Source: Patescibacteria group bacterium (GTDB taxonomy: Bacteria > Patescibacteriota > WWE3 > UBA101185 > UBA10185). From it: 37,318 nucleotides of DNA. Under the pieces are notes generated by a model, which had not been told where the DNA came from, did not search any database, and saw nothing but the letters and a program-made list of their open reading frames with translations. A program made the translations under genes and the position numbers. Location of the stretch: assembly GCA_016926555.1 (NCBI GenBank), contig JAFGOI010000007.1:1-37318 (forward strand). The letters are read 5' to 3'. Positions 5,254 to 10,797 of the stretch are shown piece after piece (position 1 is the first letter of the stretch; each line of letters starts with the position of its first letter).

Positions 5254-6825
5254 TTACTCATTTTTTGGAGGCCTTTTAGTTCTTTTCCACTCTTCAAATT
5301 CCTCTTCGGAGGAAACATACTTAAAGTAACCCTTTATATATTCTGAAAATTCATGCCATTCATGTTCTAAAAACGGTTTTACTTTCGGAGTTGCCCAAGG
5401 CAAATTTCTTCCTAACCACAGTTCATCCACAACGTGTAAAACGTCATATATATCAGTTCTCAGTTTGATTTTTTCCAGAGCGTCCCGCCACTTTATTGCT
5501 CTCTCAAAATCCTTCTTCAATACCGCTTCGTTCATCTCAAACTCAAACTCTAGCATAACTTGATTAAACCACTCTGGAGGCGTACGTTTTTTAAAGGGCT
5601 CCTTCATATATGTACCTGAATTGGCAAGATGCATCTGTCTTATATAACCACTTCTCTGCCAGTTAAATGCTTGATCTAGTATTTTTCTATACAAATCATT
5701 TGCTTTCTCAATTACACCTTCACTAACATCCAAATCTTTAATAACATCCTTAAGAGAGTAGGCCCCCTGTTCGATCATTTCAAGACTCCACCACGGTTTC
5801 GCGCTTGCCCACCAATATTGATCCGAGGCAACTGCCGTATCAAGTTTCGCGCGAGCCTCTTTCCACTTTTTTGACTCTTTATCTTTATAATTGTGTACTT
5901 CCTTGATGATCAAGTCTGTAAGCTCCCATTGAAGCGTGTGGATAGGGTTTTCAGGATCTTTCCATAATATATAGGATTTTGCCACTGTAGATTTTGTTTG
6001 ATCCTTATCTAACCAAAAATCCTGCTCTTGATTTGTCCAGGTACTCGGTCTTAGATCTACCTCTTCAACAGGTAATTCATTTTCATACTCCTTAAGAAGA
6101 TCCTCTATCGTTATATTTTCAAATTCATCCGATTCCCACAGTTGTATCAAAAACTTTTCATGCCCAATTCTATGATGACCAAATGTTTCGGCATCCATAA
6201 CATTAAACCAATACTCCGAATTTTTCTTCAGATCTCTAGTTTGCACAATAAAATCTTCAATCGATCTCACAGACGCCGATAAAATTAACGAGCTAATACC
6301 TTTATCTCTGAAAAACACATACAATCCTGTTTTCTTATCCTTGTACAACGCATTAGTCCTTGCTGGCAAACTTCCATAAGACACTGCGGGGGCGCAAAAC
6401 CATTTGTAATTCTGTCGCGCTATTGCATCTATCACTATGTCGTTTATTGCCATTTCCGGAGAAAAAAATCCACTGGGTCTGTATTTTTCATGAAAGTACT
6501 TCTTACATACATCTTCATTTGTTGTTATTTGGCTTATTATTTCATCTCTCGGCAACAAGGGTAGTAATGCGTGGTACATAGCCGTACCCGTTAACTCAAT
6601 TTGTCCCCTTTCAAGAAGTTCAACCAGCATTTCAAGTACATCATTGTACTCATTTTCAACAAGAAGCAATACTAAACCCCCTGTAATATTAACCACAAGT
6701 TTCCCGCCTCCACTCTTAAGTAATCCCTTTAATAACGGTCTATAGCTTTCACAAACGATTCTATCCAATATGTCTCTTTGCTGATTATGTGGTTGGTAAA
6801 AGTGAAGTAAATTAACTATTCGCAT
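5254..6825 (-). CDS. Glycoside hydrolase family 57 protein (alpha-glucan acting)
   Basis: GH57 enzymes are retaining alpha-amylases, glucanotransferases, amylopullulanases or branching enzymes. Family blocks are visible: region 1 LLHFYQPH (residues 6-13), region 2 GFFSPEMAI (119-127), region 3 MDAETFGHH (210-218) with Glu213 as the expected nucleophile, and a possible acid/base Asp335 in ASDQYWW. The protein is 523 residues, with a helical C-terminal extension of about 150 residues beyond the barrel. The start overlaps the upstream GH57 gene by 14 bases and has a good Shine-Dalgarno (AGAGGA), so translation is probably coupled. The enzyme class within GH57 cannot be fixed by eye. Confidence 0.88.
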   Translation of the reverse strand: MRIVNLLHFYQPHNQQRDILDRIVCESYRPLLKGLLKSGGGKLVVNITGGLVLLLVENEYNDVLEMLVELLERGQIELTGTAMYHALLPLLPRDEIISQITTNEDVCKKYFHEKYRPSGFFSPEMAINDIVIDAIARQNYKWFCAPAVSYGSLPARTNALYKDKKTGLYVFFRDKGISSLILSASVRSIEDFIVQTRDLKKNSEYWFNVMDAETFGHHRIGHEKFLIQLWESDEFENITIEDLLKEYENELPVEEVDLRPSTWTNQEQDFWLDKDQTKSTVAKSYILWKDPENPIHTLQWELTDLIIKEVHNYKDKESKKWKEARAKLDTAVASDQYWWASAKPWWSLEMIEQGAYSLKDVIKDLDVSEGVIEKANDLYRKILDQAFNWQRSGYIRQMHLANSGTYMKEPFKKRTPPEWFNQVMLEFEFEMNEAVLKKDFERAIKWRDALEKIKLRTDIYDVLHVVDELWLGRNLPWATPKVKPFLEHEWHEFSEYIKGYFKYVSSEEEFEEWKRTKRPPKNE

Positions 6826-8059
6826 GATTTTCCTCTATCATATTCTTCAATTTCTCAAACCGGCTTAAAAGCTCCTTCTTTTTCTCCTCATCACTAATTC
6901 TACTTATAACTTTACTAAAATATTCCAAACCCATTAACACAAAACCTGGTTCATATAAGTACTCACCGCAAGGCATGCTCTTCTTCGACATCCACCAATA
7001 CTTATCACTACATAACATCCTATGTATATTAATGTATAGCTGCGTGTTTCCATCCATATCCCAACTCATCCCCCCTCCCTGTACATTTATCTCGTTTTTG
7101 TATACAATACCGCCCTCGTTAATACATCCTAATATGTTACTCTCTATATCATACATTAGTGATTGTATGTTATTAGTGGTATTAAACCACAATGGGTACG
7201 AGTCGGTTACATTGTTAGAAATATCCATAGTATTCCATGTAGATTCGTTAATAATATCAACATCGCGTGTCGGGAGATTTGACACAAGCTTCGACATGAA
7301 ATTAGTGGAAATACCATCTGATCTAAATCTATCCATGATTATACTAAGAAGTGTCATGCCATCTTTGTAATGATGGCCGAAATACTCACCATCAAGTGCA
7401 ACTACAGTTGCATCTTTAACCTCCTTATATATATGATTAAATATGTCATCTGTATCTAGATCGCGCTTAAAAGAGATAATATTGCTGAGCTTCCTGTCGC
7501 GACAAACAAGATAACACGAGTTATCTTTATACTTATAAACAGACTCGAAAACATTTTCCTTATCAACTAACCCCTTTACTGCAACCTCGCTTACAAGCAT
7601 CCAATCGTAACCTAAGGAAGATACCACTTGAACAATATTCTCATTTATAGCAAGTTCCGGAGGAAAAAACCCTCTTACATCTTTAATCATTAGTGCAGGA
7701 AACCCTTCAAAGTCCTGTTTCGAGCCAAGATAATATCCCAGACCGTACTCATTTAGAAGAATCTCATCCTCAGCAATATTTTTGGGCAACATAGAAAGAA
7801 TTGGATGATATGCTGCGCTACCTATGATCTCAATTCTATCACTCTTATAGAGAGTCTTAATTTCTTCTATCCACTCTTTGTGCCCATACTTATCCATTAT
7901 CTCTAGTAAACTAAGGGGGATATTTAAAGTAAGGTTCACATCCTTACGATTATTAATAAATTTAAGCAAGGGATAGTAGCTCTCTTTCGCTATCTTATCA
8001 AGAACCTCCTTCTTTTGGAACGAGGGCTGATATAAATGAAGTATAAATGCAACGTTCAC
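6812..8059 (-). CDS. Glycoside hydrolase family 57 protein, shorter paralogue
   Basis: A second GH57 protein, 415 residues, distantly paralogous to the next gene. It shares LHLYQPSFQKKEVLDKI (8-24), FFPPELAIN (131-139), LDGEYFGHH (222-230) with Glu225 the expected nucleophile, and CSDKYWWMS towards the C-terminus. It lacks the long C-terminal helical region of its neighbour. The start is GTG at 8059; a TTGACA-17-GATAAT promoter ends 7 bases before it, so the mRNA probably begins at this codon. As first gene of the GH57-GH57-glgA-galT unit it sets expression of the whole glucan operon. Confidence 0.87.
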   Translation of the reverse strand: MNVAFILHLYQPSFQKKEVLDKIAKESYYPLLKFINNRKDVNLTLNIPLSLLEIMDKYGHKEWIEEIKTLYKSDRIEIIGSAAYHPILSMLPKNIAEDEILLNEYGLGYYLGSKQDFEGFPALMIKDVRGFFPPELAINENIVQVVSSLGYDWMLVSEVAVKGLVDKENVFESVYKYKDNSCYLVCRDRKLSNIISFKRDLDTDDIFNHIYKEVKDATVVALDGEYFGHHYKDGMTLLSIIMDRFRSDGISTNFMSKLVSNLPTRDVDIINESTWNTMDISNNVTDSYPLWFNTTNNIQSLMYDIESNILGCINEGGIVYKNEINVQGGGMSWDMDGNTQLYINIHRMLCSDKYWWMSKKSMPCGEYLYEPGFVLMGLEYFSKVISRISDEEKKKELLSRFEKLKNMIEENHANS

Positions 8060-8066
8060 ATAACTA

Positions 8067-8095
8067 ATTATCTAGCAAACTAAAATGTGTGTCAA
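8067..8095 (-). promoter_or_regulatory. Leaderless promoter of the GH57-glgA-galT operon
   Basis: Minus strand: TTGACA (8095-8090), 17-bp spacer, GATAAT (8072-8067), then 7 bases to the GTG at 8059. The predicted transcript starts at or within a base of the start codon. Confidence 0.72.
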
Positions 8096-8099
8096 AAAG

Positions 8100-8207
8100 T
8101 AGTAAGAAAAATTAGGGGGCTTACCCCAGGAAGGACGATTTCATATGCTCCTGCCCACAGCATAAGAAACTTTAGTGTCGTTCCTGGGATAAACCCCCCA
8201 ATTGAAT
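8100..8207 (-). ncRNA. Candidate small structured RNA or attenuator hairpin
   Basis: A consensus promoter (8242-8214) predicts a start near 8207. The transcript then folds into one long imperfect hairpin: outer arms 8203-8181 and 8133-8111 (GGGGGGTTTATCCCAGGAA against TTCCTGGGGTAAGCCCCC), an internal CGA/TCG pair, TTTC/GAAA, and an apical TATGCT/AGCATA stem with a nine-base loop. The 3' arm is followed by a TTTTTC tract like an intrinsic terminator. A short SD-like AGGAG and a seven-codon frame (MKSSFLG) lie in the apical and 3' part. It could be an independent RNA of about 100 nt, an attenuator, or simply the glgA2 terminator. Confidence 0.45.
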
Positions 8208-8213
8208 GCCTGA

Positions 8214-8242
8214 ATTGTATCAAATGTATATAGGTCTGTCAA
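8214..8242 (-). promoter_or_regulatory. Promoter in front of the structured RNA
   Basis: Minus strand: TTGACA (8242-8237), exactly 17 bp, TACAAT (8219-8214). It sits 39 bases after the glgA2 stop and reads straight into the hairpin element. Confidence 0.75.
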
Positions 8243-8280: not shown

Positions 8281-9825
8281 TTATTTTTTCGTGGGGATTT
8301 CTTTTTTTCTGAAATGGGCAGCCCTTTCGTATAGTTTAACATATTCAGAGGCACTAAAATTCCAGCTGAAATCCTGCCTCATCGCATTTTCCTGAAGCTG
8401 TCTCCATAGAGACGTATTATTATAGACCTCCATTGCCCTTATCATCTGCCCAAATAGTGAAAATTCATTGAAGTACTTAAACACAAATCCAGTCCCTTTT
8501 CCTGTACTGGAATCAAAATTCTCAACTGTATCCGCAAGGCCACCTACATGTCTCACCACGGGTATTGCTCCATACCTCATAGCCTCTAATTGTACTACAC
8601 CACAAGGTTCAAATCTTGAGGGATAGACGAACAAATCACATCCAGAGAAAAGCATCCTTGGTAACGCAAAATTGGGATACGGATGAATACCTACTTTATC
8701 GGGAAAGTCATTTTTAAGATAATTCAACATCTCAGCAAGACCCCCATCACCTCCCCCAACTTGAACAAACTGAATATTATATTCAGCCAATACCTGCCTA
8801 AGTGTTCGTACAAGTAAGTCCACCCCCTTTTGTATATCCAAACGTCCTACAAAACCGAATAGAGGCACATTGGGCTTTATAGGTAAATCGTATTCTTTTT
8901 GAAGAGCGTTCTTGTTTTCATCTCGCAATTCTAGAGAGCCAATATCATAATTTTTTTCAACCAGTGTATCTGTTGCAGGATTTAACTCATCATAATCAAT
9001 ACCGTTTATAATTCCAAAAAGCCTGCCCTTCAATTCCATGAGTAATTTATCTAGTCCTTCTCCAAACTCCGGAGTAAGAATCTCTTTTGCGTATGTCTTC
9101 GAGACAGTGTTTAATGCATCCGAATAAAGAATTCCGCGCTTAAGAAAATTTAGTTTATTTAACCTGTCCGCAAAAAATGAAGGAATATGAGACCTGCCAT
9201 CGTCATAATCCAACTCCGACATGTGCCTGTGGTCAATCATTCCTTGGAACATCATATTGTGTATTGTGAACACCATAGGAATCTTTCCAAGTATAGGATC
9301 CTTTCTATACACAGTTTTCACATAATTTGGAAGAAGACCCGTATGCCAATCATTACAATGAATTACATCAGGAACAAATATCCCCGTCCTAATAAACTCC
9401 AGTGTACCGCGCGCTAATAAAGCCCATCTGGTAGGATCATCACTATAACCATAAACGTTTGCACGCTTTTCATAATATTCCTGGTTCTCAAGAAAATAAG
9501 TAGTAAAACCGTTTTCATTCGAAACCTTTTTTACATTACATATCAGCTTAGTTCCCATTTCATCTCCTGTAGGTACTTCCAGTCCCTCGTACTCCATAGA
9601 TATTTTATTTATGGTTTCATCGATAGAACCAAATTTGGGCATAAATACTCTCACATCATATCCTAAATCTGTTAGGGCCTTTGATAGATGTTTCATAACA
9701 AACGCAACTCCTCCAACAGATGCATACGGAGCAACCTCAGCCGCCACTATCAATACCTTTAACTTCCCTTCCTTTTTCTTAACCCTAGTCTTTTCGGATG
9801 TAGGAGATTTCTTCGTTCTTGCCAT
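8281..9825 (-). CDS. glgA: Glycogen synthase paralogue (GT5) with altered K-x-G-G motif
   Basis: A second GT5 protein, 514 residues. N-terminal KVLIVAAEVAPYASVGGVAF, HCNDWHTGLLPNYVK, NTVSKTYAKEILTPEFGEG, then GFVGRLDIQKGVDLLVRTL and YPSRFEPCGVVQLEAMRYG with the conserved catalytic Glu are all clear. In the usual K-x-G-G-L motif the Lys is Ser36 here (SVGGV), so nucleotide-sugar contacts probably differ. The first 22 residues are a Lys-rich extension. No Shine-Dalgarno is visible; a weak promoter sits 8 bases upstream of ATG. It is a separate unit from the downstream glucan operon. It may use another donor or make a different glucan; that is inference. Confidence 0.9.
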   Translation of the reverse strand: MARTKKSPTSEKTRVKKKEGKLKVLIVAAEVAPYASVGGVAFVMKHLSKALTDLGYDVRVFMPKFGSIDETINKISMEYEGLEVPTGDEMGTKLICNVKKVSNENGFTTYFLENQEYYEKRANVYGYSDDPTRWALLARGTLEFIRTGIFVPDVIHCNDWHTGLLPNYVKTVYRKDPILGKIPMVFTIHNMMFQGMIDHRHMSELDYDDGRSHIPSFFADRLNKLNFLKRGILYSDALNTVSKTYAKEILTPEFGEGLDKLLMELKGRLFGIINGIDYDELNPATDTLVEKNYDIGSLELRDENKNALQKEYDLPIKPNVPLFGFVGRLDIQKGVDLLVRTLRQVLAEYNIQFVQVGGGDGGLAEMLNYLKNDFPDKVGIHPYPNFALPRMLFSGCDLFVYPSRFEPCGVVQLEAMRYGAIPVVRHVGGLADTVENFDSSTGKGTGFVFKYFNEFSLFGQMIRAMEVYNNTSLWRQLQENAMRQDFSWNFSASEYVKLYERAAHFRKKEIPTKK

Positions 9826-9921: not shown

Positions 9922-10797
9922 TTACTTTAACACACTATCCGCCTCATCTCTTAGAGACTGATCACCTAAAGAAGTTATATCCTCGTTAAGTCTGGCCTTT
10001 GTAACAACGAACAACCCGTGGAGCTCCTCACTGGATGCAAAGACAGAATCATCCTTTGTTAATAACAAACCAAGCTGCGCATCTGTTTCATCTGACACAG
10101 TCAATTTAAGACTCTTCTCGTAAAATTCCAGATCAGAGGGTCTAATATATACGTGTAAAACTGAAAACGGCTTTATAGGGCTATGGAGAGAAAGACCCGC
10201 GTTAAGTGTAAACGCATAGGGAAGTTGAGCATTTCTCGCGGTTTTATCAACACCTTGGGCTATATCTTTCAATCCACCCAAACCGCTCCTGTAAAATTTA
10301 CTAACCTCTTCTTGAATTTCTTCCTCAACAGGTTCCTCTTCTACCACCTCTTCTTCCCGTGCACCTAACCCTGTAATACCCTCTACCCTTTCTTCTGTTT
10401 CATCTTCCTGAAACTTCTTTGCTGCTTCTCTGAATTTTGAAAGCCAGTCAACTGATTCATCTTCCTTTGGTACCTCAGTTGTCTGTGCCGTGGTCTTCAC
10501 TCGTTCTGCTGATTCTACCGTTACCTTAACCCCTTGCGCCACTTTCTCCTCAGCAATGCCAGTACCCTCTATCACTTTCGCTACAGGCCTTACATCTCTA
10601 GATTCACCTTCGGGAACTCCCTCAGGATATAAAAAATCCATAATATCCTGTTTTGTGAACCTATGTCTGCCTGTAGCAGTTTTTACTTCCGCATGGAGTT
10701 TATTTTCTTCAATATACCTATAGACAGATCGCAGACTAACTCCGAGAATTTCCGCGACCTCAGTAGAGGTATACAGTTTGTCTTCAAGTTTTATCAT
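9922..10797 (-). CDS. HTH (MerR/excisionase-like) DNA-binding protein with unknown C-terminal domain
   Basis: Residues 8-58 form a winged helix-turn-helix of the MerR/HTH_17 kind: TSTEVAEILGVSLRSVYRYI, then GRHRFTKQDIMDFL. A middle region (about 60-165) is charged and low in complexity, with Glu-rich runs. The C-terminal part (about 170-291) looks folded and contains PYAFTLNAGLSLHSPIKPFS and LHVYIRPSDLEFYE; I do not recognise it. There is no membrane segment. The gene has a TTGACA-17-TTTCAT promoter ending 6 bases before ATG and a 16-bp perfect palindrome just upstream, suggesting autoregulation. Its position beside glgA2 makes control of carbohydrate genes possible but unproven. Confidence 0.7.
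   Translation of the reverse strand: MIKLEDKLYTSTEVAEILGVSLRSVYRYIEENKLHAEVKTATGRHRFTKQDIMDFLYPEGVPEGESRDVRPVAKVIEGTGIAEEKVAQGVKVTVESAERVKTTAQTTEVPKEDESVDWLSKFREAAKKFQEDETEERVEGITGLGAREEEVVEEEPVEEEIQEEVSKFYRSGLGGLKDIAQGVDKTARNAQLPYAFTLNAGLSLHSPIKPFSVLHVYIRPSDLEFYEKSLKLTVSDETDAQLGLLLTKDDSVFASSEELHGLFVVTKARLNEDITSLGDQSLRDEADSVLK

Follow-up and report, generated by a model that had tools for sequence, protein, structure and literature searches.

A probable new small RNA gene with an invariant apical loop beside a GH57 glycoside hydrolase gene in WWE3 bacteria

Introduction

Several described types of bacterial RNA share features with the locus reported here. Trans-encoded small RNAs are intergenic and have their own sigma70 promoter, a length of about 100 nt, an intrinsic terminator and a conserved single-stranded loop. 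The sequestering RNAs of the CsrB/RsmZ type, which belong to the CsrA control of glycogen genes, carry many loops and act by protein sequestration. 6S RNA (RF00013), of 160-200 nt, is rod-like, single-copy and lineage-wide. As for leader-peptide and riboswitch attenuators, they place a hairpin and a U-tract 5' of a metabolic operon.

The bacteria of the Candidate Phyla Radiation have small genomes and few known regulators, and to our knowledge almost nothing is known of RNA regulation in them. Among them, the WWE3 bacteria, also called Katanobacteria, are an uncultured candidate division. In this work, we analysed a stretch of 37,318 nucleotides from a WWE3 genome (contig JAFGOI010000007.1, hereafter the window), in which a previously undescribed RNA, present in one copy per genome, appears to be encoded next to glucan metabolism genes.

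Layout of the locus

On the minus strand, promoter P1 (8214..8242) is made up of TTGACA (8242-8237), a 17-nt spacer with a CCTATA box (8234-8229) and the -10 element TACAAT (8219-8214). From the positions of this promoter and of the terminator, we predict a small RNA gene of about 103 nt (8105..8207, minus strand) that would start around 8207 and end within the U-tract. The hairpin, placed at approximately 8110..8203 (minus strand) by its folding z and covariation, consists of a long covarying basal stem and an upper stem. It fills the predicted transcript almost completely, leaving hardly any RNA 5' of it, and is followed on its 3' side by the U-tract TTTTTC (8106..8111, minus strand), an intrinsic terminator judging by its sequence. 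Based on an alignment of 24 sequences, the stem is interrupted by a one-sided internal loop, ACUAAA (8171..8176, minus strand), and capped by a 9-nt apical loop, GUGGGCAGG (8150..8158, minus strand), which includes the octamer UGGGCAGG (8157-8150, minus strand).

The folding is much more stable than expected from composition, with a minimum free energy of -56 kcal/mol for a 156-nt stretch versus -34.2 +/- 3.9 kcal/mol for dinucleotide shuffles (z = -5.7), and none of the 200 shuffles was as stable as the native stretch. The hairpin occurs only once in its own 872-kb genome, where our covariance model R1 matches positions 8102-8202 (99 bits, E 2e-25). A previous sequence-only reading of this DNA had placed P1 at 8242-8214, followed by a hairpin, the TTTTTC run and a second promoter; upon re-reading the sequence, we found these coordinates to be right. 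The transcript can thus be predicted, from its sequence, as a stand-alone RNA of about 100 nt with its own promoter and its own terminator.

The promoter is itself well conserved. An exact TTGACA is found at P1 in all 24 homologues, the 17-nt spacer in 23 of them and a CTATA box within the spacer in most. In 394 kb of WWE3 DNA, we counted 19 occurrences of the combination TTGACAn2-4CTATA, all of them at the RNA gene, and this spacer box suggests a private regulator or promoter type. A candidate for such a regulator of P1 is the HTH_17/MerR-like protein whose gene (9922-10797), assigned by profile match and synteny, lies one or two genes upstream of the RNA in nearly all WWE3 genomes. As a separate observation, the CTATA box resembles an operator or an overlapping -10 element.

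Distribution among WWE3 genomes

Using blastn, we found the element in 17 other genomes, all of the same family, and 18 sequences were used to build R1. The covariance search then identified the RNA in 24 of 27 genomes of the WWE3 family, with one locus each, the second R1 matches seen in some genomes corresponding to the same hairpin on the opposite strand. The three family members without the RNA (G012, G018 and G025) are also without the GH57 gene described below. The G018 contig breaks off within the HTH gene that lies upstream, and searches for this gene in G012 and G025 gave nothing. The three misses are therefore attributed to assembly gaps, and the RNA is present wherever the locus has been assembled. 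For the same reason, we do not regard the joint loss of the RNA and GH57 in these genomes as a sign of functional coupling.

Outside the family, R1 had no match in 18 genomes from other families of the class, nor, with strict filters, in 380 genomes drawn from the phylum. The phage contigs that we checked had no R1 match either; one stretch is conserved there, without a hairpin. Matches to the loop pattern in Proteobacteria and other bacteria were discarded, as none gave a full-length R1 match of note. No Rfam 15 family exceeded its gathering threshold for the hairpin, in the window or in the relatives, and a search of open-licence papers yielded no report of a comparable RNA from WWE3 or any other candidate phylum.

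Selection on the RNA

In the 24-sequence alignment, 93.9% of the base-pair cells are standard pairs, and 31 of the 35 pairs have changes on both sides. The covariation score is 0.62, compared with 0.25 for shuffles and at most 0.20 with slid partners. As this alignment had been fitted to the structure, we repeated the test on a MAFFT alignment made without regard to structure, using a null model that redistributes the changes of each column over a tree, a home-made stand-in for R-scape. With this null, 15 of the 35 pairs have E<0.05 in the MAFFT alignment and 14 of 35 in the structure-fitted one, and no off-structure pair is significant. In an independent MAFFT alignment of 18 sequences, compensatory changes are found in 28 of the 35 pairs. 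Thus, a covariance test on relatives, which the sequence-only reading had proposed, reveals compensatory changes beyond phylogeny, albeit with a home-made test rather than R-scape itself.

The type of pairs indicates which strand is concerned. There are 119 G-U and U-G pairs versus 11 A-C and C-A mismatches, a bias that would not arise if the selected molecule were the DNA or the opposite strand. Selection therefore acts on the minus-strand RNA. Conservation, covariation, the strand-specific G-U pairs and the dedicated, conserved promoter thus lend strong support to the earlier proposal of a self-contained non-coding RNA gene, and we consider it almost certain that the locus is a genuine, undescribed small RNA gene.

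The apical loop and its possible partners

While the stem sequence varies, the octamer UGGGCAGG is invariant in 24 of 24 sequences. Even the pairs that close the loop change by compensation, for instance from CU..AG to CC..GG and AU..AU. The internal loop is kept in the closer relatives and shortened or lost in the distant ones, and a U-tract (T-run in the DNA) follows the hairpin in most relatives, being weak in a few. An invariant loop on a freely varying stem suggests that the apical loop is the functional element, and that the stem serves as a rod-like scaffold to present it.

This distribution of conserved positions bears on two known structured RNAs. A 6S-like RNA, which would bind RNA polymerase by mimicking an open promoter, might be considered given the long rod shape and single copy of the RNA, all the more since no 6S RNA was recognised in its own genome. 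However, there is no central bubble, the only internal loop being one-sided and shrinking away in distant members, and conservation sits in the apical loop. The RNA itself gave no match to RF00013 either, but both RF00013 results are weak evidence because the search recognised only 5 of 14 controls. The sequence-only reading had deemed the hairpin too short for 6S RNA, which agrees with a length of about 100 nt, and we regard a 6S-like role as very improbable.

That the RNA might be the signal recognition particle (SRP) RNA of the WWE3 lineage was prompted by the lack of any recognised SRP RNA (RF00169) in 57 genomes of the phylum sample, where the controls do ring. Nevertheless, neither the loop nor the stem has the SRP domain IV motif, in line with the earlier remark that the SRP apical motif is missing, and the RNA has no RF00169 match. 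It is absent from the genomes sampled in other families, and it would have no partner, since no Ffh M domain (PF02978) was detected in 54 genomes of the phylum sample, in contrast with all 14 controls. An SRP identity can be practically dismissed. Of separate interest, the signal recognition particle as a whole seems absent or very diverged in the phylum sample.

With its octamer unchanged and single-stranded while the stem varies, the loop also looks like a kissing seed. The RNA could therefore be a trans-acting antisense small RNA, whose G-rich loop UGGGCAGG would base-pair to C-rich stretches of messengers or ribosomal RNA matching all or part of CCUGCCCA. In the genomes sampled, CCTGCCCA is more common than its reversed control (169 versus 63 occurrences), although the comparison is uneven, since the control includes CG. 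We searched for CCTGCCCA in eight genomes and read the contexts of most matches in seven of them and of a few in the eighth. No messenger site is conserved beyond three of the eight genomes; one such site lies in an mraZ-like gene, within the coding sequence. The only site common to five of the eight genomes is in 23S rRNA. In the WWE3 relative G002, this site reads AGTGCCCA, so that the complement to the octamer is lost while the loop of the RNA is unchanged, which makes pairing with 23S rRNA unlikely. Independently of this question, the 23S rRNA gene of G002 (L280:3400-3520) appears to be interrupted after AGCAGTAACTATAA, as by an intron or an insertion.

Closer to the RNA, neither the surrounding 12 kb nor the start regions of adjacent genes contain a conserved complement to the loop. 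The energies of duplexes between the loop and neighbouring genes are at the level of shuffles, with mean z values of 0.08 for GH57, -0.03 for the second downstream gene and 0.33 for the first upstream gene. An antisense action on the GH57 operon was rejected on both grounds. The second gene upstream, which is the HTH gene in most cases, showed a slight excess (mean z -0.66), but this arises from sites that differ between genomes, are rich in G-U pairs and are mostly coding, and the lead was dropped. Pairing with a messenger is thus not supported, though a seed as short as 6 nt could have escaped the target search. Altogether, we hold an antisense function to be a minor possibility, the foremost of the alternatives discussed here.

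Relation to the GH57 gene

The RNA lies between a glgA-type glycogen/starch synthase gene on its 5' side (8281..9825, minus strand; TIGR02095, E 1.5e-144; synteny) and a GH57 glycoside hydrolase gene directly on its 3' side (6812..8059, minus strand; PF03065, E 3e-27). In all 24 genomes, this same GH57 gene comes immediately 3' of the RNA, including G021, where the gene shows as an overlapping reading frame. The sequence-only reading would have been contradicted by a hairpin that is not conserved in relatives with the same gene order, and it withstood this comparison. The glgA gene is missing beside the RNA in five relatives that retain the RNA and GH57. In the other families inspected, several genomes have GH57 immediately after a GlgA-like reading frame, and a hairpin of this kind was not seen. 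As for the tandem GH57 genes of the window, they differ in character: the second (5254-6825) is rich in invariant residues, FFxPE and DxETFGHH motifs among them, and the first (6812-8059) is far less conserved.

Such a fixed location, kept even where glgA and the second GH57 gene are lost, together with a hairpin and U-tract that form a terminator, would fit a cis-acting leader, in which transcription from P1 would, in certain conditions, continue past the hairpin into GH57, as in an attenuator or a riboswitch-like terminator. Yet a second promoter intervenes. P2 (8067..8095, minus strand) comprises TTGACA (8095-8090), a 17-nt spacer and GATAAT (8072-8067), and the GH57 gene starts with GTG at 8059, 7 nt past the -10 element. 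Among the 22 genomes scored, the start codon is usually 6-7 nt after the P2 -10 element and no Shine-Dalgarno sequence precedes GH57, so that a read-through messenger would have no evident ribosome site. A leaderless promoter immediately downstream, as the sequence-only reading had described, is therefore both confirmed here and usual among relatives. In addition, the hairpin leaves no room in the transcript for an antiterminator, and no alternative pairing covaries.

The sequence-only reading had also noticed, in the apical region, an AGGAG and a seven-codon frame (MKSSFLG), and envisaged a leader-peptide attenuator. Both elements are present, the frame reading ATG AAA TCG TCC TTC CTG GGG TAA (8144-8121), but they are not conserved as such, as the ATG is found in only 5 of 24 relatives and AGGAG in 21 of 24. 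The peptide was therefore discarded, as was a role of AGGAG as a ribosome-binding site or anti-Shine-Dalgarno decoy, its AG being part of the stem and changing with its partner in three genomes. Without a conserved peptide or RNA 5' of the hairpin for an antiterminator, and with GH57 leaderless from P2, the leader-peptide attenuator is not retained, and a cis-acting leader in general seems improbable. The separate, leaderless P2 argues instead that the RNA and GH57 genes are tandem, independent units, as predicted from their promoters.

In some genomes (G009 and G010), the -35 box of P2 lies within the 3' arm of the hairpin or the U-tract. This raises the idea of a promoter-linked insulator, in which transcription from P1 and its termination mainly protect P2 or interfere with it, the RNA being a by-product. 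However, about 8 to 150 nt separate the end of the R1 model from the GH57 start, depending on the genome, and a by-product would need no invariant loop. We find this explanation even less convincing than a leader.

Proposed function

We favour a non-coding RNA gene that stands alone and whose product binds a partner in trans through its loop, a proposal to which we give roughly even chances. Since the search for antisense partners revealed none that is conserved, we regard a protein as a likelier partner than a messenger. The sigma70-type P1, with its own spacer box, would drive synthesis of a roughly 100-nt RNA, nearly all of it folded into a single rod and bounded by its own terminator. The stem would provide a stable scaffold and the loop the working part, so that a protein reading the loop would be sequestered or steered by the RNA. 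The level of RNA would be set by a regulated P1, plausibly in connection with glucan metabolism, since the RNA never leaves the GH57 gene. We thus rank protein binding at the loop above base-pairing in trans, and the latter above a role in cis, although the leading mechanism is held much more weakly than the existence of the RNA gene itself.

It is tempting to speculate further that the RNA forms the core of a WWE3-specific ribonucleoprotein, with a loop read by a dedicated protein and a level that governs glucan storage or a global process. This bolder version is unlikely; if true, the Candidate Phyla Radiation would harbour a new class of bacterial RNAs that control proteins. Whatever the mechanism, this RNA gene, found across the lineage with strong covariation and a promoter private to it, is ready for an RNA family model, and its invariant loop beside a glucan operon offers a defined handle to find a regulator in cells that have not yet been grown.

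Comparison with known systems

Like 6S RNA, the WWE3 RNA is rod-like, single-copy and lineage-wide. It differs by its length of about 100 nt, its lack of a central bubble and the location of its conserved element in the apical loop. It shares with attenuators a hairpin and U-tract 5' of a metabolic operon, but has a separate downstream leaderless promoter, no conserved peptide and no antiterminator. The trans-encoded small RNAs are similar in promoter type, length, terminator and conserved single-stranded loop; in contrast with them, the RNA described here is almost all one long hairpin, belongs to no Rfam family and has no conserved complementary target that we could find. Unlike the CsrB/RsmZ RNAs, with their several ANGGA loops, it presents a single loop that lacks the ANGGA consensus, part of the GGA being in the stem. 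Nevertheless, it shares with them a G-rich loop (GCAGGA) beside glucan genes, and protein sequestration, the mechanism of the CsrB/RsmZ RNAs, is the one that we propose for the WWE3 RNA.
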